Assembly: GCA_009823395.1 (NCBI GenBank)
Contig: CM020506.1
Coordinates: forward strand, 22,472,501 to 22,536,500
Direction: 5' to 3'
Length of the DNA: 64,000 nucleotides
Source: Thamnaconus septentrionalis
Lineage: Eukaryota; Chordata; Actinopteri; Tetraodontiformes; Monacanthidae
In this document: positions 10,995-51,531 of the stretch, in pieces
Layout of the letters: the number at the start of each line of letters is the position of its first letter
How positions within the stretch are numbered: the stretch's first letter is position 1
Notes under the pieces: model-generated
What the model was told of the DNA's origin: nothing
Databases searched by the model: none
The model's input: only the letters and a program-made list of their open reading frames with translations
Position numbers and translations under genes: made by a program

Positions 10995-11357
10995 GAAGCA
11001 ACTCTTAATATTACTGTGACTGTTCCTGTGACTGCAACTGTTATTGTGACTGTTACTATGACTGCTGCTGTTACTGTGACTTTGTGACTTTTACTGTGAC
11101 TGTTACTGTGAAAGTTACATTTACTGTTTCTGTGACTGTTACTGTGACTGCAACTGTTATTGTGACTGTTACTATGACTGCTGCTGTTACTGTGACTTTG
11201 TGACTTATACTGTGACTGTTACTGTGAAAGTTACGTTTACTGTTTCTGTGACTGTTACTGTGACTGCAACTGTTATTGTGACTGTTACTGTGACTGCTGC
11301 TGTTACTGTGACTGTTACATTTACAGTTTCTGTTTCTGTTACTGTGACTGTGACATG
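10995..11357. repeat. Minisatellite of TGACTGTTACTG-type units with about 116-bp higher-order period
   Basis: The tract is built from 6-mer variants (tgttac, tgtgac, tgcaac). The landmark gactgcaactgttattgtg recurs at about 11030, 11147 and 11262, giving a higher-order unit of roughly 115-117 bp present about three times. It lies in the first intron of the FBA-domain gene. Confidence 0.85.
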
Positions 11358-20509: not shown

Positions 20510-20828
20510 AGAGAATCCTCATTAACTCAATCAATCAATCATTCACAGTGTTCTGTGATTTCCGGTAACTGGGAGGAGAATCACTTATCAGAGAATCTAA
20601 GTATCATCTAATATCCAAAGAGCAGCTCAAAGTCCAAGTTGTTCTCTGTCTATGTTGAGAGGAGGCAGCAGCAGCAGGGTGAGTCCTCACTGACTGAATC
20701 ATCCACATTAAATCTGTTGTCACTCTACAGGGTCAGTGAGAGGTGGACTAGTGTCTGCTTCATTCACACAGTAGCTAAACTGATTTTAACCTCCTCTTTT
20801 CTCAGTTGTGTTCTCATCTGCGATCACA
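20510..20828 (+). pseudogene. Relic of an NLR 5' untranslated/promoter region
   Basis: The segment matches the sequence upstream of the NLR gene 1 start (about 23600-24240). Shared words are cagcagggtgagtcctcact, gactgaatc..tccacattaaatctg, gtcagtgagaggtggact and ctgcttcattc. It also carries the farther-upstream phrase agcagctcaaagtccaa. The similarity stops at about 20828, exactly where a minus-strand LINE tail begins, so no leader exon follows. It is best read as a duplicated NLR 5' end cut off by the LINE, or separated from its gene by it. Confidence 0.6.
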
Positions 20829-24044: not shown

Positions 24045-24294
24045 GACCAGCAGCAGCAGCAGCAGCAGTGTGAGTGAGCGGTGCAGCAGGGTGAGTCCTC
24101 ACTGACTCAATCCACATTAAATCTGATGCCAGTCAACAGAGTCAGTGAGAGGTGGACTGGTGTCTGCTTCATTCCACTGGAGAGTGTGACACAGTGACTG
24201 TGTTTCTCCTTCTTCTCTCTGAGGTGGAACTCACTGTGTTCTCAGCTCACTGTCACACTTCCTGTTTGACCTCAGACTGACTCCACTTCACAAG
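24045..24294 (+). promoter_or_regulatory. 5' untranslated region of NLR gene 1 with a candidate 5' UTR intron
   Basis: A (CAG)n run at 24050-24068 is followed by a candidate donor (cagcag|gtgagt, exon end 24090). A candidate acceptor (tgacctcag|actgac, exon start 24276) lies just before the ATG at 24295. Near-identical sequence at 20660-20828 supports this as a real conserved 5' module. The transcription start is not defined. Confidence 0.45.
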
Positions 24295-24621
24295 ATGAGT
24301 GTTCGTGTGGAGGAAGAGGAGGACGGAGCAGAGCCTCCAAATTTCAACTATTCGTCCCTGAAGAATTACTGGTCCAGAAAACAACCTCAGACCTTCAGTA
24401 AAGACCGAGGAACCTCTGAGACTCGGTAAGAAAACCTGGACCTACTCTACAGACAGGGTCACATGGTCACTGGGCGTTTCTGTCACACCGATCAGATCCA
24501 TTGATCCATCTTTGTCTCACTCTGTCCAAACTGTTGCTCATTTCCAAAATCTGGAATCTTATGTGAGAGAACCAGTCTGAACTTTTCAAGATGAACTTTA
24601 ATATTCCTGTTTCCAACACAG

Positions 24622-26565
24622 ACGGAGAGCAGAGTCTCCAGTGTCCAGTGGTCTGTCTCTGAAGAGTGACTGTTCCAGAGATGAACCTCTGAACTTCAGT
24701 AAAGACCGAGGAACCTCTGAGACTCGGTAAGAAAACCTGGACTGACTCTACAGACAGGGTCACATGATCACTTGTTTTTTTTTTTGTCACACCGATCAGA
24801 TCCATTGATCCATCTTTGTCTCACTCTGTCCAAACTGTTGCTCATTTCCAAAATCTGGAATCTTATGTGAGAGAACCAGTCTGAACTTTTCAAGATGAAC
24901 TTAAATATTCCTGTTTCCAACACAGACGGAGAGCAGAGTCTCCAGTGTCCAGTGGTCTGTCTCTGAAGAGTGACTGTTCCAGAGATGAACCTCTGAACTT
25001 CAGTAAAGACCGAGGAACCTCTGAGACTCGGTAAGAAAACCTGGACTGACTCTACAGACAGGGTCACATGATCACTTGTTTTTTTTTTTGTCACACCGAT
25101 CAGATCCATTGATCCATCTTTGTCTCACTCTGTCCAAACTGTTGCTCATTTCCCAAATCTGCAATCTAATGTGAGAGAACCAGTCTGAACTTTTCAAGAT
25201 GAACTTAAATATTCCTGTTTCCAACACAGACGGAGAGCAGAGTCTCCAGTGTCCAGTGGTCTGTCTCTGAAGAGTGACTGTTCCAGAGATGAACCTCTGA
25301 ATTTCAGTAAAGACCGAGGAACCTCTGAGACTCGGTAAGAAAACCTGGACTGACTCTACAGACACGGTCACGTGATCACTTGTTTTTTTTTTTTGTCACA
25401 CCGATCAGATCCATTGATCCATCTTTGTCTCACTCTGTCCAAACTGTTGCTCACTTCCAAAATCTGGAATCTTATGTGAGAGAACCAGTCTGAACTTTTC
25501 AAGATGAACTTAAATATTCCTGTTTCCAACACAGACGGAGAGCAGAGTCTCCAGTGTCCAGTGGTCTGTCTCTGAAGAGTGACTGTTCCAGAGATGAACC
25601 TCTGAACTTCAGTAAAGACCGAGGAACCTCTGAGACTCGGTAAGAAAACCTGGACTGACTCTACAGACAGGGTCACATGATCACTTGTTTTTTTTTTTTG
25701 TCACACCGATCAGATCCATTGATCCATCTTTGTCTCACTCTGTCCAAACTGTTGCTCATTTCCCAAATCTGCAATCTAATGTGAGAGAACCAGTCTGAAC
25801 TTTTCAAGATGAACTTAAATATTCCTGTTTCCAACACAGACGGAGAGCAGAGTCTCCAGTGTCCAGTGGTCTGTCTCTGAAGAGTGACTGTTCCAGAGAT
25901 GAACCTCTGAATTTCAGTAAAGACCGAGGAACCTCTGAGACTCGGTAAGAAAACCTGGACCTACTCTACAGACAGGGTCACATGGTCACTGGGCGTTTCT
26001 GTCACACCGATCAGATCCATTGATCCATCTTTGTCTCACTCTGTCCAAACTGTTGCTCATTTCCAAAATCTGGAATCTTATGTGAGAGAACCAGTCTGAA
26101 CTTTTCAAGATGAACTTAAATATTCCTGTTTCCAACACAGACGGAGAGCAGAGTCTCCAGTGTCCAGTGGTCTGTCTCTGAAGAGTGACTGTTCCAGAGA
26201 TGAACCTCTGAACTTCAGTAAAGACCGAGGAACCTCTGAGACTCGGTAAGAAAACCTGGACTGACTCTACAGACAGGGTCACATGATCACTTGTTTTTTT
26301 TTTTTTGTCACACCGATCAGATCCATTGATCCATCTTTGTCTCACTCTGTCCAAACTGTTGCTCATTTCCCAAATCTGCAATCTAATGTGAGAGAACCAG
26401 TCTGAACTTTTCAAGATGAACTTAAATATTCCTGTTTCCAACACAGACAGAGAGCAGAGTCTCCAGTGTCCAGTGGTCTGTCTCTGAAGAGTGACTGTTC
26501 CAGAGATGAACCTCTGAACTTCAGTAAAGACCCAGGAGCTGCAAGCCACAGCCAGACTACCCACA
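24622..26565 (+). repeat. Tandem array of seven phase-2 exons encoding a 35-aa repeat
   Basis: Exon starts are spaced 304, 304, 305, 305, 301 and 306 bp. Each exon begins after an aacacag acceptor and, except the last, ends at gactcg|gtaaga. Each encodes (R)RAESPVSSGLSLKSDCSR followed by DEPLNFSKDRGTSET, polar and charged with no transmembrane or zinc-binding pattern. Because every exon is 105 bp and splits the same codon, any number can be skipped or repeated without losing frame. The last copy diverges to SKDPGAASHSQTTH and changes phase to join FISNA. Exons are identical or nearly so, and the introns fall into two alternating types. Confidence 0.9.
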
Positions 26566-26797
26566 GTAAGACAGTCCACCTGCACCTCCTTCACATCTCA
26601 CTTCATCAATGTCAGGACCTCCAATGAGAAGATCCACTGGGGGACATTTAGAGCAAACAGTCAGACAATCATACAGCAGCAGCAGCTTCACCGCCTCAGC
26701 TGAAAAATGGAGTTTGGATGCTTTCACCTTCAAATTGTGGACAGGAAATGATGCTCACACTGTCACACTGATGTTTTCTTCTCCAACCTTCTCTCAG

Positions 26798-28588
26798 CTC
26801 CAGAGGTTGATGGTCTGCAGGAGCTTCTACAGCAGCATAAGATCAGTCTGGAGAGGAGATGTGAATGTGTGACTGAAGGTGATGAAGAAGGAAGTCAAAC
26901 CCTCCTCAACAGCATCTACACTGAGCTCTACATCACTGAGGGACTGAGTGAGGAGGTCAACAGACAGCATGCGGTCAGGCAGCTGGAGACCAAGAAGACC
27001 AAGAAGGCCAAGGAGAACCTCCACGACCGTCCAATCAGGTGCAGCCAGGTCTTTGAAGCCTCACCTGAGCAGCAGGTACTCAGAGTCAGAGTGGTGCTGA
27101 CCAACGGCGTCGCTGGGGTTGGAAAAACCTTCTCAGTACAGAAGTTCACTCTGGACTGGGCCCAGGGCCTGGAGAACCAGGACCTTCATCTGGTGCTTCC
27201 TCTCTCATTCAGGGAGCTCAACTTGGTCAAAGAGCAGCACTACAGTCTTCTGGAGCTGCTCCATGTTTTCCATCCAACGTTAGAGAAGCTCACAGCAGAG
27301 CAGCTGCATGTCTGCAAACTTCTCTTCATCTTGGACGGCCTGGATGAAAACAGACTGGTTCTGGACTTTGAGGAGAACCAGGTGGTGACTGACGTCTATC
27401 AGAAGAGGTCAGTCAGCGTCCTGCTAACAAACCTGATCAGAGGAGATCTGCTTCCCTCGGCTCTGCTGTGGATAACTTCCAGACCTGCAGCAGCCAATCA
27501 GATCCCTCCGTCATGTGTGAACAGGCTGACAGAAGTACGAGGCTTCACCGACGACCAGAAGGAGGAGTATTTCAGGAGAAGGTTCAGAGATGAAGATGTG
27601 TCCAGCAGGATCATCTCCCACATCAAGGCCTCCAGGAGCCTCCACATCATGTGTGAGATCCCGGTCTTCTGCTGGATCACTGCCACAGTTCTGGAGAACA
27701 TGTTGAGCTCAGAGCAGAGCGGAGAGCTGCCCAAGACCCTGACTGACATGTACTCACACTTCCTGCTGGTCCAGACCAAGAAGAAGCAGCAGAAGTATGG
27801 AGCAGGTCCACAGGAGCTGACGGAGGCTGACAGGGAGCTTCTTCTGAAGCTGGGCAAGCTGGCATTTGAACATCTGGAGATTGGAAACATCATGTTCTAC
27901 AATGAAGACCTGGAGAAGTGTGGACTCAGTGTGACGGATGCCTCTGTGTACTCAGGAGTTTGTACAGAGATCTTCAGAAGAGAGAGTGTGATCTTCCACA
28001 AAACCGTCTACTGCTTTGTTCATCTGAGCGTCCAGGAGTTTCTGGCTGCAGTCTACAGCTTCTACTGTCACACCACCAACAGGAAGACAACAGGAGATGA
28101 TCAATCTGGAGAATCCCTGGATGAGTTCTTGAGGAGGATGATGGTGAAATCCCTGCAGAGTCCAAACGGTCACCTGGACTTTTTTGTTCGCTTTCTTCAT
28201 GGACTCAGTCTGGAATCCAACCAGAGACTCTTAGGAGGCCTGCTGGGTCTCACTGACAAGCATCCAGGAACCTTAGAAATATCATTAACAACCTGAAGGA
28301 GATGAACACTGGTGATGTTTCTCCTGACAGAAGCATCAACATCTTCCACTGTCTGCTGGAGGTGAAGGATCAGTCAGTGCATCAGGAGGTCCAAGAGTTC
28401 CTGCAGTCAGAGAACAGATCAGAGAGGAAACTCTCTGCCATCCAGTGTTCAGCTCTGGCCTACATGCTGCAGATGTCAGAGGAGGTTCTGGAGGAGTTGG
28501 ACCTGGAGAAGTACAAGACAACCTGGGAGGGAAGATTGAGACTGATTCCAGCTGTGAGGAACTGCAGGAAGGCTGTGATACGTTCAAG
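26798..28588 (+). CDS. FISNA-NACHT exon of NLR gene 1 (frameshift near 28277)
   Basis: The exon opens [20 protein letters not shown], the fish-specific NACHT-associated (FISNA) region, with [19 protein letters not shown] text ([20 protein letters not shown]). It carries Walker [15 protein letters not shown], Walker [13 protein letters not shown], sensor-like [11 protein letters not shown] and the winged-helix/HD2 phrase [17 protein letters not shown]. Compared with gene 2 (accttagagaatatc) it reads accttagaaatatc, one base short. The frame then gives EISLTT and stops at 28294-28296. The original frame resumes at 28302 and stays open to the donor at 28589, with no further stop. This suggests a young lesion, or a sequencing error. 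Confidence 0.9.
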
Positions 28589-28611
28589 GTACGTAAACAC
28601 TGTGTGCATGC

Positions 28612-28612
<1 letters not shown>

Positions 28613-28656
<44 letters not shown>
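28613..28656. repeat. (GT)n microsatellite after the NACHT donor of gene 1
   Basis: The dinucleotide run starts about 25 bp after the splice donor. The homologous intron of gene 2 has one at 43177-43229. Confidence 0.95.
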
Positions 28657-30974: not shown

Positions 30975-32790
30975 GAATAATAATAATAATAATAAACTTT
31001 TATTTGTACAGCGCTAAATCACAACCAATGGCGTCTCAAAGCGCTTTATACAATCAGAGAGAACCAACTGGGCCCCCGGAGCAAGCAAAATGCGACAGTG
31101 GCTGGGAAAAACTCCCCTGTGGGAAGAAACCTAGGGCAGAACCAGACTCCAGAGGGCCATCATCTGCCTATGAGTAGTTGGGGTGAAATACAAAAATAGA
31201 GGAGAGACAGAGAAAGAGAGAAAGTAGTAGAGTGAGCCAGGGTGGCAGACAGGACAGAGTGAAAAACAGATACACCAACCAGGCATTCACAAAACGGATA
31301 TAAACACAAAGAACAGGAAATAATTCAAGGCTGCTGTCCGTGTGGGCTGTAAGTGTCCATGCTTTGGAAGGCAAGAGCCTATCCCGATGGACAATCTGCC
31401 GATAGGACAAGTCCAGGTCCTAGGCGTGGTGGTGGGACAAGCGATGACACCAAGACCCCAGGACAGCACAATCCAGCTCCTGGCGCAGTGGTCATCACCT
31501 GCCGGGGACACAGAGACTGCGGCAGTATCATGCATATCCAGCATACTGTACAAAGCATAATGAGAGCTAGTTTGGACAGAGTAGATAGAGTCAAAAGAGT
31601 CAAAGATTGATTGGGTGAGGAGAGTGATAGAGACTGCACAGAGCAACGATCCCTGTAGCGGGAGCGAAAGATCTCCCTCCACGGCGTAAGCCTATAGCAG
31701 CTTAACTGACAGTGGATGGAATCTAACTATAAGCTTTAAGAAAAGGAAAGTCTTAAGTCTACTCCTAAATAAACTAACTGTGTCTGCCCCCTCACCGAGG
31801 CTGGAAGATGATTCCAAAATAAAGGTGCCAGGAAACTGAAACACCTACCTCCTGACCTAACTCTAGAAATTTTGGGATAACTAAAGACCTGAATCCTCAG
31901 AGCGAAGGGCTCTTGGAGGATGATAAAGTTCAATTAGTTCCCTAATATAAGAAGGAGCCTGAGAATGAAGAGCTTTGTAAGTTAAAACTAGAATCTTAAA
32001 TTCAATTCTAAATTTGACAGGCAGCCAATGCAAGGAAGCTAAGATTGGAGTAATATGCTGCCTCCTTCTAGTTCCGGTTAACAATCGTGCCGCATAGAGT
32101 TTTGGATTAACTGTAATGTCCTAAGGGATGAATTTGGGCATCCTGCTAGTACCGAGTTACAGTAATCTAGCCTAGATGTAACAAAAGCATGGATTATTTT
32201 TTCAGCGTCTTTGAAGGACAAAAAACCTCGAATTTTGGCAATGTTTCTTAAGTGGAAAAAAGCTGACCTACCCACATTCTGAATATGAGAATTAAAGGTC
32301 AGGTCCTGATCAAAAGTGACTCCAAGATTCCTCACAGTAGAACTGGGTGTAGTACCAAATAGACCACCCTGTCCATCAAAGGCTCTGTCCCTACTCTCTC
32401 GCGAACCAAATATAATGACCTCAGTTTTATCGGTATTAAGCAACAAGAAATTCTGTGTCATCCAAGTTCTAACATCACGAAGACAAGATTCCAATTTGGC
32501 CAACTGATGAGCCTCATTTGCCTTAAAAGACAAGTACAGCTGTGTGTCATCTGCATAGGAATGGAAACTGATGTTATGCTTTCTAATGATGTCACCAAGA
32601 GGTGACATGTAGATGTTGAAGAGGAGTGGTCCAAGTACAGATCCTTGCGGGACACCATGACTAACCCTCCTACGTTCCGATGAATGATTATGAACATGAA
32701 CAAACTGAATGCGATGCGAAGTGTCGAAACCACCTCCCTGAGGTGGTTTGAGTGATCGGATCACATTCCGCATTAGGGCTGTGTCCATGT
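30975..32790 (-). mobile_element. L2-type LINE, 5'-truncated
   Basis: Minus strand, 32788 to 32078: an RT domain with [17 protein letters not shown], the catalytic [29 protein letters not shown] and [14 protein letters not shown]. After a short break it continues at 32084-31881 with ITPILASLHWLPVKFRIEFK and TYKALHSQAPSYI, the L2/CR1 C-terminal signature. It ends in a 3' tail at 30975 with an (ATT)n run. The 236-codon RT frame is open, but the N-terminus is missing. Confidence 0.85.
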
Positions 32791-32822
32791 GGTCACGTCA
32801 AGTGGTTTTTGGTGATCGGATC

Positions 32823-33366: not shown

Positions 33367-33468
33367 GATAAAGCAGTTGATCAGACATTTATGAGTCTTT
33401 AATCACTTTCATAGTCTGCAGAATCTCACATGTTGACCACAACTTCTCACCTGCTCTCCTTCATTCAG

Positions 33469-39387
<5,919 letters not shown>

Positions 39388-39685
39388 GTCAGTACTGGTT
39401 TAAAACCAGTGGATGATGGTTCCAGCACCAAAGCCAGTTGATCACACCTAAGTTACTTATAAGCTTAAACCAACTGTCAGTCAATGGTTGAACACTCCTT
39501 TCCCTATGAAATAATGTAAAAATAAATCCTCTTTAGAAAAATAGGCATGTATGCCTAGATAACATTTTGAAAATACTGTTACTGTAAATTTGGCAGAGAG
39601 TACACAGAATAAACATCAACAATATTTATGCAAGAACATGAACATATCTGCTCTTGAATTGAGTAACTGACTGTCTCATCACCTG

Positions 39686-40380: not shown

Positions 40381-41038
40381 GTTTCCTCCTGGCTAAAGGA
40401 GATGCGCGTCGCAGTGTTCCTGACTACCGCGACATGATGTGACATAAAAGGTACAGAGCGGTTTCCGTGCATTTGGTGTAAATTGGGGGTAACCCAACAT
40501 GACGCGTGACGCAACGTGACATGCCTCCGTGCTGGGAAATGGAAGGATCGTAAAGAAGAATCGATAACATTGGAGGTGTACGAATCCGATGGAATGCTGA
40601 CGGCACAAAGTGTAAAATCGAAGATATGGTTTTGTTGTAGCCCCCCAACAGCACACAGCGTTGTTGTCTGCATCTACAAATCACCATCGCTTTCCTTACT
40701 GAACACCTGCTGCGCCGCCATCAGCTGATTGTCAAAAGAATCACCAACACACACATGTTACTGGCGGTTTTGATGAAAATAAAGAAAACATTATGGCCGA
40801 GGGAAATCAGTTGTCTCAGGCAGCCCAAACCAAAACGTTACCAGGATGCTGACTTCATTTACTAACACTGGAAGAAAGCAATGCTAGATGTGAGTCTTGG
40901 TAGCTCACAGAGGTGGACAGCTGATAGATAGCGCTCACTGCAAAAGTGTAAACTGGTGCTCATTTCGAAAAACTGGAATCTAATGTGAGAGAACCAGTCT
41001 GAACAAGATAAACTTAAATAGTCCTGTTTCCAACACAG

Positions 41039-43170
41039 ACGGAGAGCAGAGTCTCCAGATGTGAAGAGTGATGACTCCAAAGCTGAACCTCTGTTCCTCA
41101 GTGAAGACCCAGGAGCTGCCAGCCACACCAAGACTGCCCACAGTAAGACTGTCCACCTGCACCTCCTTCACATCTCACTCCATCATGTCAGGACCTCCAG
41201 TGAGAAGATCCACTGGGGGACATTTAGAGCAAACAGTCAGACAATCATACAGCAGCAGCAGCTTCACCACATCAGCTGAAAAATGGAGTTTGGATGCTTT
41301 CACCTTCAAGTTGTGGACAGGAAATGATGCTCACACTGTCACACTGATGTTTTCTTCTCCAACCTTCTCTCAGCTCCAGAGGTTGGTGGTCTGCAGGAGC
41401 TTCTACAGCAGCATAAGATCAGTCTGGAGAGGAGATGTGAATGTGTGACTGAAGGTGATGAAGCAGGAAGTCAAACCCTCCTCAACAGCATCTACACTGA
41501 GCTCTACATCACTGAGGGACTGAGTGAAGACGTCAACAGACATCATGAGGTCAGGCAGCTGGAGACCAAGAAGAGCCTCCATGACCGTCCAATCAGTTGC
41601 AGTCAGATCTTTGAAGCCTCACCTGAGCAGCTGGGACTCAGAGTCAGAGTGGTGCTGACCAACGGCGTCGCTGGGGTTGGAAAAACCTTCTCAGTGCAGA
41701 AGTTCACTCTGGACTGGGCCCAGGGCCTGGAGAACCAGGACCTTCATCTGGTGCTTCCTCTCTCATTCAGGGAGCTCAACTTGGTCAAAGAGCAGCACTA
41801 CAGTCTTCTGGAGCTGCTCCATGTTTTCCATCCAACGTTAGAGAAGCTCACAGCAGAGCAGCTGCATGTCTGCAAACTTCTCTTCATCTTGGACGGCCTG
41901 GATGAAAACAGACTGGTTCTGGACTTTGAGGAGAACCAGGTGGTGACTGACGTCTATCAGAAGAGGTCAGTCAGCGTCCTTCTAACAAACCTGATCAGAG
42001 GAGATCTGCTTCCCTCGGCTCTGCTGTGGATAACTTCCAGACCTGCAGCAGCCAATCAGATCCCTCTGTCATGTGTGAACAGGCTGACAGAAGTACGAGG
42101 CTTCACCGACGACCAGAAGGAGGAGTATTTCAGGAGAAGGTTCAGAGATGAAGATGTGTCCAGCAGGATCATCTCCCACATCAAGGCCTCCAGGAGCCTC
42201 CACATCATGTGTCAGATCCGGGTCTTCTGCTGGATCACTGCCACAGTTCTGGAGAGCATGTTGAACTCAGAGCAGAGCGGAGAGCTGCCCAAGACCCTGA
42301 CTGACATGTACTCACACTTCCTGCTGGTCCAGACCAAGAAGAAGCAGCAGAGGTATGGAGCAGGTCCACAGGAGCTGACGGAGGCTGACAGGGAGCTTCT
42401 TCTGAAGCTGGGCAAGCTGGCATTTGAACATCTGGAGAGTGGAAACATCATGTTCTACAGTGAAGACCTGGAGAAGTGTGGACTCAGTGTGACTGATGCC
42501 TCTGTGTACTCAGGAGTTTGTACAGAGATCTTCAGAAGAGAGAGTGTGATCTTCCACAAGACCGTCTACTGCTTTGTTCATCTGAGCGTCCAGGAGTTTC
42601 TGGCTGCAGTCTACAGCTTCTACTGTCACACCACCAACAGGAAGACAACAGGAGATGATCAATCTGGAGAATCCCTGGATGAGTTCTTGAGGAGGATGAT
42701 GGTGAAATCCCTGCAGAGTCCAAACGGTCACCTGGACTTTTTTGTTCGCTTTCTTCATGGACTCAGTCTGGAATCCAACCAGAGACTCTTAGGAGGCCTG
42801 CTGGGTCTCACTGACAAGCATCCAGGAACCTTAGAGAATATCATTAACAACCTGAAGGAGATGAACACTGGTGATGTTTCTCCTGACAGAAGCATCAACA
42901 TCTTCCACTGTCTGCTGGAGGTGAAGGATCAGTCAGTGCATCAGGAGGTCCAAGAGTTCCTGCAGTCAGAGAACAGATCAGAGAGGAAACTCTCTGCCAT
43001 CCAGTGTTCAGCTCTGGCCTACATGCTGCAGATGTCAGAGGAGGTTCTGGAGGAGTTGGACCTGGAGAAGTACAAGACAACCTGGGAGGGAAGATTGAGA
43101 CTGATTCCAGCTGTGAGGAACTGCAGGAAGGCTGTGATACGTTCAAGGTACGTAAACACTGTGTGCATGC

Positions 43171-43233
<63 letters not shown>

Positions 43234-46200
43234 AACGAGGGAAACACTGAGTGATCACTTTTAGCAGGAGGCTGTCAACACAGGGCTAACTCAGCTGCTT
43301 TGTGTTGGATGGTGAGTGGAGAGAAGCTGCTCCACTGGAGTCCAGGATGGAGATGAAGAATGAGGAGCTTTGATCAGTGTGAAGGATTCATGCAGACAGT
43401 CAATCAACACAATCAACACATTGAACACACAAACACATCACATCCTTCCTTCATTTGGCAGCAGACAATAAAACAGCAGTTTTATCAAAGATGCAGTGAG
43501 TCCAAAGAGACGCCAGTGAAGGAACTCTGATCCAGTGAGCATCATGTTGAGTTGAAGCAGCAGATCAGAGCAACGCTGTTGGTCACAACAGGACGTGTTG
43601 ACACTCAGTGGCTGGAACACACTGGAGTGTGAAGCTGCACTGAGTTCCCTTGTTGAGGAGACTGTACTGGAGACACTGAGGACCGGGGGGTTAATCGCAA
43701 TAGTGTCCTGAGTTAACTAGCGAGTAATTGCAAATTAATTGCACATTTTTAACCTGCTCCATATTTAACTTTAACAAGATATTTATTGTGTTTCTTAAAC
43801 TACAGGAAAAACTGGAGAGCACAATAATAATTATTTTGTGGAAATACTCTATTTTATTTTCATTGGAACATTTCAAAACGATTACCGTACAAACTTAAAC
43901 TGTGTGTGTATTTGTATGTTTGTTTGTTTCATCTCTCTTGCACTGATACTGAAAACAATTTTGAAAATTGCTATTATTTAGAAAAGTAACTTTTCTCATG
44001 TTTCTTTGAGTAACTTTCTGTCCAGTTTGACGCGATCGCCTCTGGCTCGCGCACAAAATAGGCCAGACATTGAAACGATCACTGCACAGCGGCGGAGGTG
44101 CTCGCCGCTTGGAATCTGGTGTGAACAACACCATCGGTTAACAAGGCGGAGCTGAAAGAAAGCGGGCTCCGTTCTGCTGCACTTCCGCGGCCGGTGTGAA
44201 TCAGGCGTTAATCACACGCTAAAAAATGAGTGCTGTTAAAAAGAGTTTGAGTTAATGTGTTAATAACACATTCACTTCGACAGCCCTAACAATAATGTAC
44301 GTGGATTTCATCCTGAAACCTAGAAAACTAAGTTTGTCCAAAAAAATCATGAAAAAGGAAAACTTCATTGACTATAAGATGGAAACACTTTGAAACGAAG
44401 ACTGCACAAACGCACACACATTTCCTTTGAGCATCCCAATCATCGTGGAATTGATCGCACATGAGCGCGAGCCACGCTCCTCCCTCAGAATGCCTCCACA
44501 TACATTTGCATATCTATAGAAATTAACTTTGCAGATTGGAATTTCTTTCATTCCACAATCGATCTCAGCATGAAAAAGAAAAACTTCATTGACGCTGGAA
44601 ACGCTGGAAACACTTCAAAGCGAAGTAGAGACTTGGAAAGATGCAAATATCACCACGACAGACAGAGTTAATACATGGGTCTCATCATATCTCTGTTCTC
44701 TGCTGCGCTCCATCACTCTCCAGCGTTATCCACCACGTCTTCCAAAGGAAGAAGACCCGGACTCGAATCACAGCCGTAGCAGCTCCTGGATTTACACCTA
44801 CGGGAGGAACAGAGCATCAAAGCTAGCCTGCGAAGTATCCTCAACAAAATCCGTGAATGAATTTAGAAAAGACGATAGAGCTCCACTCCCCGACATTAAA
44901 CAAGGGCTGCAGAGAGCAAATGACAGACTGGATGAAGCAGAAGGGAGAATAGATGAAACGGAGAACGTGCTCCTGACGTCAAAGCTAGTTAAGCTGTTCG
45001 TTTTTTTCCCACCGAATAGGACACCCAGGAATAGCACACAAGGAATACTAGTCACTGCTTCATTCCTTTTGATTGTATGATTTTTGAAGGAAGCAAAGCA
45101 AAGGTAATAAACCTGAACACATGAAACAATGGTTGGCATATACAGAAAAAAACTCATAGAAATGTAAACTCATAATTTCTTAACCAATACCAAACCATAA
45201 GATTATTTGTAGCAACTATACTAGAAATATATAAATATATTTTATATTAAATACACATTCAAGCCAGTTATTAATTTAAGTTAATATGTAAATTTTGCTT
45301 TTGGAATAACAGACAATAGACTACATAATATAATACAAATACTATAATAGAATGTATGTAATAAATAATATAGTTTTATAATTTGTGAAAGCAAAGTGCT
45401 CTAAACAATCCATCCGCCGCTGAACCTGTCCTGCAATCAACGTGAACAACCGGTTATAAACTGCGACTCTCATTGAGCCCCGGAACTTCTACCAGGAAGC
45501 AGTAGCAAGTTTCTCTCTGCTGTTGTTTGCATTCTGCTACAACAACACCCGGTGAACCGACAAAACAGTTCACCCAGTTGTGACGCTAACACAGCACTCG
45601 CCAAACCAACCCCCAATGCAAACCCAAAATGATAATAAAATATGTCCGATCTGGCACAGTAATCTGCTGCCTTCCAGGAGCCTGTGCACAAAAACAGTGA
45701 AGCAAAGCTTCATGAACATAAGCAGAACGGATAACAGAAGACAAACAAGCAAGCACATTTACTGTAGAGATGGGACAAGCTCACCAGCTGGGTGTGCGCT
45801 GGGCCATTCAACAGAAAGTTGTGCACAGGTGAACACGCTACTTATAATGAGATACACCCCTTGCTTATGAATGCACACGCCCTTTCGCCACTGTCACCAT
45901 AACGTGCTCCAATAGAGATAAACTCAACCCAAGCGGCTAACGCAACCCTAGGCTAGCTTGGAGGCACGGCTGATTGACCACAAAGCCCGATCGTAGAGGG
46001 AGAACCTGAGGATTTATGGAATACTCCAAGACAAAGAGGTCACTGACATGACTGGCTTGCTGGATAGCCTGTTGAAGACCTCACTTGAGTTTCCAGAGGA
46101 TGGGTGGGTCGCTACATCCAAGGCCTGCCCGACCTGTCTGGACCCTGCCTACGACTTCCTGATGCTGCAGCCTGCCCATCGCCTTCTGCACCTCCACTGC

Positions 46201-49200
46201 CCTCCACTTCCTTCCAGTTGCAACTCTGGCATTTGCTTCTGCCACTGTCCTGTCGAGGGATTCCCCTACCTCCATCGCCAGCCTTGCCTTCTCTTGCCTG
46301 TAACCCAGGGTGATGGATTTCAGGGGTAGTTGGAGTGAATTCCGACCATACAGGCCAGCTGCTGAGAAACACCATGGCAGCCCAAGCCATTTGCGAATGA
46401 AGGGTTGGCTTTTGCCTCCATCCGGCTGATGAGGTGACTTCACACAGCTTTAGAGGCCACATCACCCTTGGGGACAGGGTGAAGTGTCAGCACCACACCT
46501 TGTGCTTTCCGGGTAACTGGGTTGAGTTGATCTTTGACAGGCCTTCTGAAAGCTGCTGAAGGATGGTTCTCCCCATGTCCTTATCTGAGAGACCAGATGT
46601 ATATAGTCTTCCCAGGCTTCGGATAGGCTGATCCACGATGAGGGGGATGTCTTCCCCACCGATGGTAAAAGCGACTCTGTCATTCCTCTCCCCTTTCCGC
46701 AACGAGAGGCTCCTTGACTTTTTGGGCTTGAACTTCATCCTTGCCCAGGTGATCAGTTCGTCCAGCCTCTTCAGCAGCCTGGAAGTGTATGGTGCAGTTC
46801 GTAGAAGACAAGTGATATCGTCCATGTAGCTCCTTAGGGGCGGGAGCCTCTGGCCTGTAGGCAGTTGGACACCGCCCACCACCTGCCTTGCCCCGATCAG
46901 GATGACCTCGAAGGCTGCTGCGAAGAGGATGGGGGAGATGGAGCATCCCATTGCAATCCCTACTTCTAGTTGTTGCCAACCAGTAGTGACCTTCTTTAGT
47001 GCGAAGCACATGAACATGTCCTGGTAGTAGCTCATGATCATGGCCTTGATGTTGTCTGGGATGTAGAAGAAGTCGAGGGCATATGATATCAGCTGGTGTG
47101 GCACTGACCCATAGGCATTGGCTAAGTCCAGCCATATGACATGCAGATCTTTCTTCTCTCTCTTGGTGGTCTGAATCTGTTCCCAAATAATGGAAGCATG
47201 CTCTACGCAGCCGGGGAAACCTGTAATTCCAGCTTTCTGGCAGCTTGTGTCGATATACCCATTTTCCATTAGGTACGTGGTCATCCTTCTTGCCATCACT
47301 GAAAAGAATATTTTCCCCTCCACGTTCAGTAGGGCAATGCTTCTGAACTGCTCGATGGTCTTGGTGTTCTGTTGTTTGGGAATAGAGACTGCCACTGCCC
47401 TTTGCCACTTAGATGGTATGCTCTGCCTGGTCCAGATGACTCTTAGCAGGGTACATAGGAGCCTCAGCACTCTTGGGCAGTTCTTATATAGCTTGTACGG
47501 AATTCCGTTTGGGCCTGGTGCTGAAGCTGTTCTTGCCCGCTGGCTCTGATTACTGATGAGTCACCCTTTCATACTCCCAGATAGGCCTTATTTAAATCTA
47601 GGGTGGCATAAGTGGCATGTGTTCCATTTTGTTTTAGTCATGCATATAAAAAACATTGTCCAATCCTCTTCTACCTAGCTTGCACCCACACCTGAACATA
47701 GGCAACACTTCTATTCATTTTTTTCTAATTATAATGAATGGGACCTGTTAGGCAGCCATCCTCAACTTGCTTAATTATTCAGTTTTTGTTTGTTTGTTTG
47801 TTTTATTATTTTTGTCGCTCTCTTTTTCTTTTGGACTCTGGCGGAATGTAGCCACATACTAGAGGGTGACACGGGAGTGGATTTTCACTCCCGTCCCATC
47901 CCACTCCCACTGAAAAAATCCCGTCCCATCCTAGTCCCAGTGAAAATTACTCCCACTCCTCTGCTCCCATTCAGAATGACTCACACTCCCATAAAGCTCC
48001 CATCTTGGAGGTCAGGTACATTAAAAAACAACAACAACAAACAAACAACTTAAGTTGCAGTTTCAAAGTTTTACTCATTTATTGAACAGTTTGTCACCCC
48101 CTTTCTCCTCATGGACTCTCAACAAATTGGAAAAAATTGAAAGAAATAAAAATGCAAATAAAACAAATAAACAAATACAAGTGCAGGAGACTGAAAGAAA
48201 TAAAAATACCACAACCACAAATTTCCTTCCCCACAATTTCTCTACATTGCTGTGTAGAAACAAAAGTGCGTTTGATCTACCTGGTTGATACAAGGATGAT
48301 TCTGTAACACACAGCTGGCATGGTAGGACTGGGTGGACTGTGGTACCCATCGTTCTGCCAGCTCTCTTTGGAAGGAACCCCAGCGAGGTCAACAGCTGTT
48401 GGCACCGCAGCTCCTTGTCACACAGTGTTCTGAAGGGCTGCGGCTCGGAGCAGAGTTCTAAAAGAATCGCCCTTCAGAACTTACGGCTCATGAAGTCTGG
48501 ATGGTCTCTTAAAATTCTTTCGTGGCAAACTACTCTATTCACCTCGTCCTCCATAGTGCCCATGCTTCCGCTTTAGCTTTAGCTTTATTTTCTACACCTC
48601 TGTGCACGCATGCTTTGGTACTGATCAATATAAATGAATGTGTTGTTCGTCAAAGCCTATTGGAAACCGCTTCAGTAATTGTTCCCCAACACAACCAGTG
48701 AGTGTTGCCAAAAGATTTGCAAGTGTACAAATGTATGTACGCAAGTTAGAGACTTGACGTGGAGCACCGCACATTTCCACCGTCAAGTCACTTTTTGTAC
48801 ATCCGAACGTGAACATCGAAACGGACGTACGGGATGGGTTTTTGTGCGTACATACTTTTTGTACGTGAGGCCCCTGGTGATGATGATGATGATGATGAAG
48901 ATGATGATGATGATGATGCAGTTGATCAGACATTTATGAGTCTCGAATCACTTTCACAGTCTTTGGAATCTCACATGTTGACCACAACTTCTCACTCTGC
49001 TCTCCTTCATACAGTTCTCTCTCAGAGCTTCAGTGTGCAGTGGTGTCTTCAGCTCTGAAGTCCAGCCCCTCCCACCTCACACTGCTGGACCTGACTGACA
49101 CCACCCTGGAGGATCCTGGAGTGAAGCTGCTCTGTTCTGGACTGCAGAGTCCAAACTGCAGACTGGAAGTTCTCAGGTCAGTTCCTGCTTTCTACTGGTG

Positions 49201-51531
49201 GACAGTGTGTGTCAGCAGATGACAACTAGTGTGTAACGCTGCTAAGTGTGAAGACTTTGAAGCAGATTATTAAAGACTAATCTAGACAAAGTGGATGTTG
49301 TTGATATTTTCATGTCAACAATCTGCAGCCAGAAAAGACTTTTGATGGTGGAAGAAAGTGTGGAAAATGTCTCCAGTCACTTTGGAGCTCAATTGAAGTT
49401 GTTGATTGGTGATGAAGGTCACATGACTGAGCAGAAGATCCTGTGAAGAAATATTAGAGGCAGATTAATAGTGCAGCAGTATTTCTTCATCTTGTCCTTT
49501 GAATGTGTTTGACTTGTAACGAGACTCTGATGACTGAAAACAGCCACAAGCACACAAAGGACTCACTGATTATTTTCCATCTTCACTGCTGATTGGCCGC
49601 ACACTGACTGACACACTGCTGCTGTTATTGTGTTGACAACACACTGGCACAATGACTCGTTTGAGGGAATGACTCAGTGATCCGAACAGCCGCACATCTG
49701 GATCATCAACAGGGAGAAATGACTCTTAATATGACATTTAAAACATGGAAGAAATCAAGTATTTATTCTTTATTCAGGTTGAGTTACTGCTGGTTGCCAG
49801 AGCTCAGCTGTGATTGGCTGCTCTCAGCTCTGAAGTCGAACCCCTCCCACCTGAGACACCTGGACCTGGGTTGGAACCAGCTGCAGGATTCATCAGTGAA
49901 GGAGCTGAGTGGTTTTCTGCAGAGTCCAGACTGTAAACTGGAGACTCTGAGGTCAGTTCACCCTCTTCACTCTACAACTTCTATCACTCTTGTTATTGTC
50001 CTTATGATTTTCACTTCACTGCTGTTGGAAATTCAATATGCAGTCACTGCTTTGTGTTTGAAATGTATGAAACTGCGTGGAAAGGCACAGTGTGTAAAAA
50101 CCTGCCATCTAGTGGTCAGATTTCAGATTGCAGGGTTTATTCACTCACCCTCTCCATTTCTTTCGTTGCAGATTCTGTAGTCAACATTTCACTTTGATTT
50201 TCAGAGTGATGACACCCTGGAAAAACTCTCCATCATTATAAACTCCCCATCATTTCTTCTTTATTCAGGTTGTGGAGCTGCAATTTGTCAGAGCTCAGCT
50301 GTGATTGGCTGCTCTCAGCTCTGACGTCCAACCCCTCCCACCTCAGAGACCTGAACCTGAGTGAGAACCAGCTGCAGGAATCATCAGTGAAGGGGCTGAG
50401 TGGTTTTCTGCAGAGTCCAGACTGTAAACTGGAGGTTCTGGGGTCAGTTCAACCTCTTCACTCTACAACTTCTGCAGTGATTGTTGTCATGACTTTGAAT
50501 ATAGTTTGTTGGAATTCACTTTGATTCCATTAGAAATGTGTTAAACTGGATTTAAATTACACACACACACACAAACACACCCAACTGTGAATGTCTCTCT
50601 CCATCCTTTCTTCTTTATTCAGGTTAGGTACCTGCAGGTTGTCAGAGATCAGCTGTGATTGGCTGCTCTCAGCTCTGAAGTCCAACCCTTCCCACCTCAG
50701 AGAGCTGGTGCTGAGTGGGAACAAGCTGAAGGATTCATCACTGAAGGAGCTGAGTGGTTTTCTGCAGAGTCCAGACTGTAAACTGGAGGCTCTGAGGTCA
50801 GTTCACCCTCTTCACTCTACAACTTCTGCAGTGATTGTTGTCATGACTTTGAATTGAGTTTGTTCAAATTCACTTTGTTTCCATTAGAAATGTGTAAAAC
50901 TGGATTTAAATTACACACACACACACACACACGTGCCCAACTGTGAATGTCACTCTCCATCATTCTTTATTCAGGTTGAGGAACTGCAGTTTGTCAGAGC
51001 TCAGCTGTGATTGGCTGCTCTCAGCTCTGAAGTCCAACCCCTCCCACCTCAGAGAGCTGGTACTGACAGGGAACCAGCTGAAGGATTCAGCAGTGAAGCC
51101 GCTGATGGATCTTGTCCACAGCAGAGACGCTAAACTGGAGAGTGTGAGGTCAGTACTGGTTTAAAACCAGTGGATGATGGTTTCAGCACCAAAGCCAGTT
51201 GATCCCACAGCAGAGGTCCAGTGTTCCCAGTCACAGTGTGAGAGGAGGATGGTGACGTCCAGCTGCTCTTCATTCATCCAACATCTGTTGCCAAACTGCT
51301 TCTTCTCTCAGTTGACCACTCAATTATTGATCAGTTCATCTTCATCAGGCCTCAGTATCAGTCCAACACTCCATGGTCACATGACCTCCATATTATCCAC
51401 ACTTGACATGTGACTGAGAGTCTGGTTCTTCTCACCAGTCACTCCATCAACAGTCAACGTCTTTGTGATGATGCGTCCAAGGACCATGAGTCCTGACTCC
51501 TGCTGTCTCTTCTTCTCTCTACAGGTATTGA
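41039..51531 (+). CDS. NLRC3-like NLR gene 2 (FISNA-NACHT-LRR), open frame
   Basis: Exons: N-terminal repeat-type exon 41039-41142 ([20 protein letters not shown]...), FISNA-NACHT 41374-43147, LRR exons 49015-49176, 49778-49951, 50269-50442, 50623-50796 and 50975-51148, and a terminal exon at 51525 that adds only a tyrosine before TGA (51529-51531). All joins keep phase and no stop interrupts them. The predicted product is a cytosolic nucleotide-binding innate-immune sensor. No leader exon with an ATG was found between 39388 and 41039, so the true 5' end is unknown. It may use a start inside the FISNA exon, an unrecognised exon, or the leader of gene 1. No B30.2 domain follows the LRRs. It is convergent with svbp. 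Confidence 0.85.
41374..43147 (+). CDS. FISNA-NACHT exon of NLR gene 2 (intact)
   Basis: The frame is uninterrupted for about 590 codons. It has Walker [15 protein letters not shown], Walker [41 protein letters not shown] and an HD2 end [20 protein letters not shown]. It is nearly the same as the gene 1 exon, differing by scattered substitutions and by a short deletion (KKSLHDRP against a longer [14 protein letters not shown]). Even the introns on either side align, so the pair is a recent duplication. Confidence 0.93.
43177..43229. repeat. (GT)n microsatellite after the NACHT donor of gene 2
   Basis: Dinucleotide run homologous in position to 28613-28656. A segment present after the tract in gene 1 (28657-28755) is missing here. 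Confidence 0.95.
43684..44288. mobile_element. hAT-like MITE inserted in the NLR gene 2 intron
   Basis: The block interrupts sequence that is contiguous in gene 1 (gaggacc|ttggggttcattt at about 29240). Its ends, gggggttaatcgcaatagtg and ttcgacagccctaac, and the internal gtaattgcaaattaattgcac / gttaatgtgttaataacac resemble fish hAT MITEs whose termini read AGGGCTGTC with TTAATCGC-rich subterminal DNA. No transposase was seen. Confidence 0.55.
44589..45080 (+). pseudogene. L1 ORF1-like fragment
   Basis: The open frame of 163 codons includes [20 protein letters not shown] and RIDETENVL, a heptad-like coiled coil similar in style to the ORF1 protein of L1-type LINEs. No RT follows. The left half is shared with 29500-29690 in the paralogous intron. 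Assignment is tentative. Confidence 0.35.
46075..47550 (-). mobile_element. Non-LTR-type reverse transcriptase, large open frame, clade uncertain
   Basis: The minus-strand frame 47470-46487 (327 codons) carries RT blocks in order: [71 protein letters not shown] and the catalytic YMDDITCLL. These are followed by [19 protein letters not shown] and [16 protein letters not shown]. After a frame change at about 46480, conserved C-terminal text continues at 46443-46081 ([55 protein letters not shown]). No endonuclease was recognised to the right. A YMDD rather than FADD core and this C-terminal block set it apart from the other LINEs in the window. Confidence 0.75.
47855..48010. repeat. CTCCC-rich repeat fragment
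   Basis: Repeated cccgtcccatccc / actcccactgaaaa words at 47879-47995 resemble a common fish hAT-MITE terminus. The other end was not located. Confidence 0.35.
48878..48920. repeat. (ATG)n microsatellite upstream of the first LRR exon, gene 2
   Basis: Paralogous with 33328-33366; both precede agttgatcagacatttatgag and the first LRR exon. Confidence 0.9.
49015..51531 (+). CDS. LRR exons and terminal exon of NLR gene 2
   Basis: Five LRR exons (one of 54 codons, four of 58) match the modules of gene 1. Examples are [40 protein letters not shown] and [20 protein letters not shown]. The last LRR exon aligns with the last of gene 1 ([15 protein letters not shown]). The acceptor tctctacag at 51524 opens the terminal exon; codon AG|G TAT TGA gives Arg-Tyr-stop. 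Gene 2 has one LRR exon fewer than gene 1. Confidence 0.85.

Follow-up and report, generated by a model that had tools for sequence, protein, structure and literature searches.

Intron haplotypes in an N-terminal repeat-exon array of a fish NLR-C gene hint at units added in blocks

A stretch of 64,000 nucleotides of contig CM020506.1 of Thamnaconus septentrionalis (assembly GCA_009823395.1; hereafter the window, in whose positions all coordinates are given) holds a tandem array of repeat exons at the N-terminal end of a gene that, by the domains it encodes, is a fish NLR-C (FISNA-NACHT-LRR) gene. We conclude that the units of this array were probably added in blocks by misaligned exchange. The array is probably young, and the N-terminus that it encodes is probably disordered. 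What is new here is that the introns of a young array carry readable haplotypes; the type of repeat array itself is already known.

The array lies on the + strand and consists of a start exon, six exons of 105 bp and one exon of 119 bp. The initial annotation had placed six 105-bp exons and one longer exon here, and the exon starts and splice sites agree with it. Each intron is described below by its 5' variant (L, or the poly-T type S) and its 3' variant (A or B).

24295-24425, + strand: start exon with ATG at 24295, encoding a short acidic leader and a diverged eighth repeat copy
24426-24621, + strand: intron 1, 196 bp, 5' variant L, 3' variant A
24622-24726, + strand: repeat exon 1, 105 bp, phase 2
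24727-24925, + strand: intron 2, 199 bp, S-A
24926-25030, + strand: repeat exon 2, 105 bp
25031-25229, + strand: intron 3, 199 bp, S-B
25230-25334, + strand: repeat exon 3, 105 bp, silent T variant
25335-25534, + strand: intron 4, 200 bp, S-A, three private substitutions
25535-25639, + strand: repeat exon 4, 105 bp
25640-25839, + strand: intron 5, 200 bp, S-B
25840-25944, + strand: repeat exon 5, 105 bp, silent T variant
25945-26140, + strand: intron 6, 196 bp, L-A, one substitution from intron 1
26141-26245, + strand: repeat exon 6, 105 bp
26246-26446, + strand: intron 7, 201 bp, S-B
26447-26565, + strand: last repeat exon, 119 bp, which leaves in a different phase

All introns are 196-201 bp long and of the GT-AG type. 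The acceptors are identical (7/7, CACAG/AC, the slash marking the splice junction), as are the donors of the start exon and the six 105-bp exons (7/7, CG/GTAAG). The six 105-bp exons are in phase 2 at both ends and encode the peptide RRAESPVSSGLSLKSDCSRDEPLNFSKDRGTSETR; they differ from one another at one silent C/T site, where those starting at 25230 and 25840 carry T. Tandem Repeats Finder describes the block as 7.2 copies of a 304-bp period with 96% matches and a score of 3996, far above chance. The repeat exons start 304, 304, 304-305, 305, 301 and 306 bp apart, and the units are 95-100% alike (lowest identity 0.951), which confirms that they are near-identical. Seven copies of the 35-amino-acid segment were expected and seven exons were found, but the start exon, which shares its final 33 bp exactly with the ends of the repeat exons, adds a diverged copy; in the spliced N-terminus a profile accordingly finds eight repeats. 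Likewise, the same codon is split at all seven 5' ends but at only six 3' ends, the 119-bp exon joining the FISNA exon at 26798 in another phase. Because six 35-amino-acid repeats each sit on a symmetric phase-2 exon, the array can gain or lose whole exon-intron units (about 304 bp each) with its reading frame preserved.

The array directly precedes a FISNA-NACHT exon, which places the phase-matched repeat exons in an NLR, as first proposed. FISNA (6.9e-23) and NACHT (2.6e-31) lie in the same open frame, 26752-28296, and NOD2_WH and NLRC4_HD2 domains follow in the same exon. Further downstream, tblastn blocks and tandem units place the LRR repeats each on single exons, and a second NLR follows.

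26798-28588, + strand: FISNA-NACHT-WH-HD2 exon of the array gene, its end placed by eye at the donor-like GTACGT at 28589
33464-39448, + strand: LRR exons attributed to the array gene by tblastn with relatives (33464-33631, ~37224-37760, 37909-38091, 38748-38930 and 39206-39448)
41039-51455, + strand: second NLR, with its last repeat exon from 41039, a FISNA-NACHT open frame at 41328-43250 and LRR exons

Within the window the second NLR has a last repeat exon only; no start exon or array was found for it there. Its similarity to the array gene begins at 40950, within the intron that leads to its last repeat exon, and the sequence upstream is unmatched. The two genes are 96% identical over the whole aligned stretch and have no substitution over 28046-28645; this substitution-free tract between both NACHT exons suggests a recent copy or duplication, or a conversion. 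LRR exon-intron units at 37167-39447 and 49752-51248 are also tandem, being 61-90% identical to a reference unit, and are more diverged than the N-terminal array. Reverse-transcriptase (RVT_1) open frames lie on the - strand among the LRR region of the array gene (32081-32797) and within the second NLR (46490-47560). Elsewhere in the window, positions 20671-20769 are an 89% copy of 24083-24177, upstream of the start exon, and are perhaps a remnant of another NLR 5' end, and there is a minisatellite at 11011-11354, to which Tandem Repeats Finder assigns units of 12, 18, 30 and 116 bp.

Aligned with the second NLR, the array gene shows a gap of one base near 28277, which disrupts its coding frame and coincides with a break in the tblastn matches of relatives. 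Neither this gap nor the second NLR featured in the initial annotation. The frameshift marks either a pseudogene or a sequence error, and the array gene may no longer encode a working receptor. The gene may be a dead relic whose array has been drifting and expanding as neutral minisatellite-like sequence, a reading that we consider possible but somewhat doubtful. In favour of a relic, the gap sits in the substitution-free stretch shared with the second NLR and splits the matches of relatives. Against it, splice sites are intact and no stop interrupts the spliced frame from the start exon through the seventh repeat exon, six units differ by a single silent change, and a one-base gap can be a sequencing error.

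Variation among the units is sparse, and most of what can be read of their history lies in the introns. Alignment of the units confirmed the order A,A,B,A,B,A,B for the 3' variants, with A in introns 1, 2, 4 and 6 and B in introns 3, 5 and 7. The 5' variant is L in introns 1 and 6 and S in introns 2, 3, 4, 5 and 7, and the variant 'ggacctactctacag' / 'catggtcactgggcgtttct' is present in introns 1 and 6 only. The units thus fall into three haplotypes, LA (units 1 and 6), SA (2 and 4) and SB (3, 5 and 7). Since only three of the four possible combinations of L/S with A/B are seen, recombination inside a unit is not required. Introns 1 and 6 are one substitution apart, so that the recurrence of the intron-1 variant in intron 6 holds, and units 3 and 5 do not differ at all, leaving aside the length of the poly-T, which varies by single bases between units. 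None of the seven units has its nearest relative next to it. One of the three private substitutions of intron 4 creates the only CACGTG of the array, at 25369.

To place the array among other fish, we drew on two protein searches, one biased towards the array (query, residues 1-520 of the spliced protein, which hold the eight repeats; best 120 of 7368) and one blind to it (query, residues 345-780; best 120 of 7980). Candidate proteins were limited to about 1377 amino acids or shorter. Together the searches gave 189 distinct proteins, many of them isoforms or partial models, so that the counts are not independent. At least one repeat was found in 119/120 proteins of the array-biased set (best 120 of 7368) and in 97/120 of the array-blind set (best 120 of 7980). 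At least eight repeats occur in 24 of the 120 array-biased proteins (best 120 of 7368), with a maximum of 14 in P0021 from Salvelinus and P0026 and P0027 from Anabas. By contrast, none of the 120 array-blind proteins (best 120 of 7980), 62 of which are from Nelusetta ayraudi, exceeds six, the maximum also in Nelusetta. Eight copies therefore stand above the close kin listed but inside the range seen in fish at large: the suggestion that the copy number is unusual survives for near relatives, and we rejected it for fish at large. The proposal that exon number is free to vary in frame fits the relatives, whose copy numbers run from 0 to 14. Among seven pairs of annotated proteins that were compared, one (P0019 and P0028, Lycodopsis) differs by exactly one 34-amino-acid repeat and nothing else, which is what exon skipping would give, these being annotated proteins and not transcripts. 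Two others differ by one repeat (P0005 and P0023) and about two repeats (P0030 and P0064) plus further changes, and a clean one-repeat difference was absent from the remaining four.

Arrays in these fish resemble themselves more than they resemble each other. Across 44 proteins with at least six repeats, the units of one array share a mean identity of 0.57-0.97, compared with 0.56 for units drawn at random from two proteins (some of the 946 pairs being isoforms of one gene), and the arrays are in this sense homogenized. The dimeric order of the array was initially thought to be unusual, but this did not hold up, as a two-unit order is plain in at least P0075 and P0056 and in P0008. P0075 and P0056, which may represent one locus, have a lag-1 identity of 0.64, lag-2 identities of 0.93 and 0.91, and a unit spacing of 33/47; in P0008 the spacing is 33/55. 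Two-unit order fell below 0.05, uncorrected, in 5 of the 44 proteins (P0021, P0012, P0016, P0075 and P0056), about 2 being expected by chance. Start-exon-like sequence lies inside the array of 10 of the 44 proteins, at least six of them in isoform-like pairs, and duplications that take in the start exon thus occur elsewhere. In several fish NLRs, among them P0012, P0021 and P0075, a RING domain separates the repeat array from FISNA. The corresponding place in the array gene is the 232-bp intron before its FISNA exon, where tblastn with the RING sequences of P0075 and P0021 found no match.

How the units were added can be approached through their order. The initial annotation proposed expansion by dimers of about 607 bp; the A/B order and the lack of adjacent nearest relatives lean that way, but exact permutation of the seven units gave 0.17 for lag-1 minus lag-2 distance, 0.18 for the absence of an adjacent nearest relative and 0.20 for A/B switches (7 of the 35 possible orders switch at least as often as observed), and the putative dimers measure about 608-610 bp. 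As the order tests, on seven units, are not significant, we call growth of this array by two units at a time suggestive. That no unit has its nearest relative next door is unexpected from single-unit copying between neighbours alone, which makes multi-unit blocks or distant conversion the simpler reading. Units would have been gained in blocks of more than one through misaligned exchange, by unequal crossing-over or conversion, between near-identical units, and the intron-1 variant in intron 6 would be the mark of one such exchange extending as far as the end next to the start exon. This recurrence had been taken as a footprint of crossing-over or conversion; the variant does return in intron 6, but unequal crossing-over and gene conversion are indistinguishable as its source. 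One economical scheme, which is not unique, might begin with an ancestral LA-SB pair, in which a crossover between the introns would produce SA; the resulting SA-SB pair would then be copied, and an exchange would bring in the LA intron again.

A rival reading, which we think unlikely, is that units were duplicated one at a time and the pattern then arose through gene conversion, and not unequal crossing-over: intron 1 would have converted intron 6, and alternate introns one another. Conversion has been argued for the fish NLR family in the part of PMC4852459 covered here, and the array gene and the second NLR share a tract of 600 bp without substitution, whereas the conversion reading needs several separate tracts, and the spacing patterns and internal start exons of some relatives suggest block duplication. 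An assembly artefact, in which near-identical units caused copies to be collapsed or expanded, is improbable: although the units of about 304 bp are up to 100% alike save for single-base differences in poly-T length, as slips would give, and the nearest relatives among the matches listed have fewer copies, the units carry variants of their own (three haplotypes, and private sites in introns 1 and 4), which suggests that each was read separately, an array of 2.3 kb would be short for long reads, if such were used, and similar copy numbers are annotated in other fish.

Repeats of this type were recognized from the outset as known from fish NLRs, and the literature bears this out. According to the portion of Howe et al. 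2016 (PMC4852459) that we drew on, zebrafish NLR groups 2-4 have N-terminal repeats of about 30 amino acids, one per exon, that are extensively duplicated in groups 2b and 3b, and a figure legend of a 2024 eLife paper (PMC11192531) states that repeat number can vary. Here, too, the repeats lie one per exon upstream of FISNA, and their number varies among relatives. The array gene therefore resembles the zebrafish NLR-B30.2 / NLR-C genes of groups 2-4 in having several one-exon repeats upstream of a FISNA-NACHT exon (PMC4852459, in part). For the C-terminal B30.2 domain, which only some groups have, tblastn of the window with a single probe, the PRY-SPRY part (896-1064) of P0165, gave no match at E 1. 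The Walker A motif of the array gene, GVAGVGKT, is not associated with the four zebrafish groups in the text seen of PMC6988351, and comparison by eye found none of the group-specific motifs of groups 1-4 in it. In the excerpts used, the group 1 motif is GIAGVGKT (PMC11192531), and the consensus printed in PMC4852459, G[IV]AG[IV]AGK[TS], is one residue longer than that of the window. By motif alone, GVAGVGKT matches NLR-C groups 5/6 of gobies and other percomorphs, for which, unlike here, the available part of PMC6988351 describes no N-terminal repeat array.

Closer comparisons come from individual fish. The most similar proteins among the matches listed are NLRC3-like proteins of Nelusetta ayraudi, which fill 62 of the 120 array-blind rows at 77-91% identity and include P0132, P0009 and P0017. 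Six repeats are present in P0009 and five in P0017 and P0036, with none above six among the matches listed, compared with eight here, and the unit spacing in P0009, P0017 and P0036 is mostly about 40 amino acids, compared with 35 here. Gymnodraco acuticeps (P0075 and P0056) and Thunnus thynnus (P0008) share with the window an alternation of unit types in an N-terminal NLR array; theirs is in the protein and includes start-exon-like sequence, whereas that of the window is in the introns and one silent site. Intron haplotypes, readable here, are not mentioned for the zebrafish arrays in the section of PMC4852459 that was covered, and dimeric order in fish NLR repeat arrays was not a topic of the papers listed, as judged by titles and the openings of abstracts in a search lying mostly outside subscription journals.

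Related repeats were found when the 35-amino-acid unit was compared with fish NLR N-termini, as the initial annotation had led us to expect, and the best unit matches in other fish are 69% identical (P0010, P0013, P0043, P0045, P0069 and others, among the proteins listed). Over 283 rows, three of which are seeds from the window, a core S-x-K-S-D-x-S-(3)-P-x-x-F is conserved (S12 0.97, S15 0.94, D16 0.90, S18 0.99, P22 0.90 and F25 0.83). A Pfam scan of the repeat region in five relatives gave no match past the cut-off (CLIP_1 in P0021 and, partly, Tmemb_cc2 in P0009 lay below it), and solved structures gave no match better than E 0.13 for two repeats. A match of the window repeat to Med16_C (E 0.00029; 21.5 bits, cut-off 21) was rejected as low-complexity chance, with no stretch passing alone. 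An AlphaFold2 model of the relative P0003, built on an alignment of 86 of the 112 non-redundant proteins among the 189, gave the repeat blocks a pLDDT of about 27-40 with no secondary structure and the NACHT-core blocks values of up to 94. The mean pLDDT of this modest model is only 51.6, and the low values are weak evidence of disorder; an earlier run with 25 rows, at a mean of 40.2, was too poor to read. We tentatively propose that the serine-rich repeats could be disordered linear motifs, whose number would set the valency of an N-terminal docking tail before the NLR switch, although this falls short of an even chance.

The portions covered of the family literature (PMC4852459, PMC11192531 and PMC6988351) state no function for the N-terminal repeats. 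Against this background, the locus offers a variant-marked example of length change in a fish NLR repeat array, and its intron haplotypes make the gain and loss of blocks testable by long-read genotyping. More generally, though this is less likely than not, the N-termini of fish NLRs may be copy-number-variable arrays that grow by blocks of at least two units, often together with the start exon, so that alleles of one species would differ in the valency of a disordered docking tail. If arrays do grow by blocks, the intron haplotypes of this locus would be a marker system with which to watch it happen; and if repeat number affects signalling, array length would be a cheap means of tuning an immune receptor at the level of populations.
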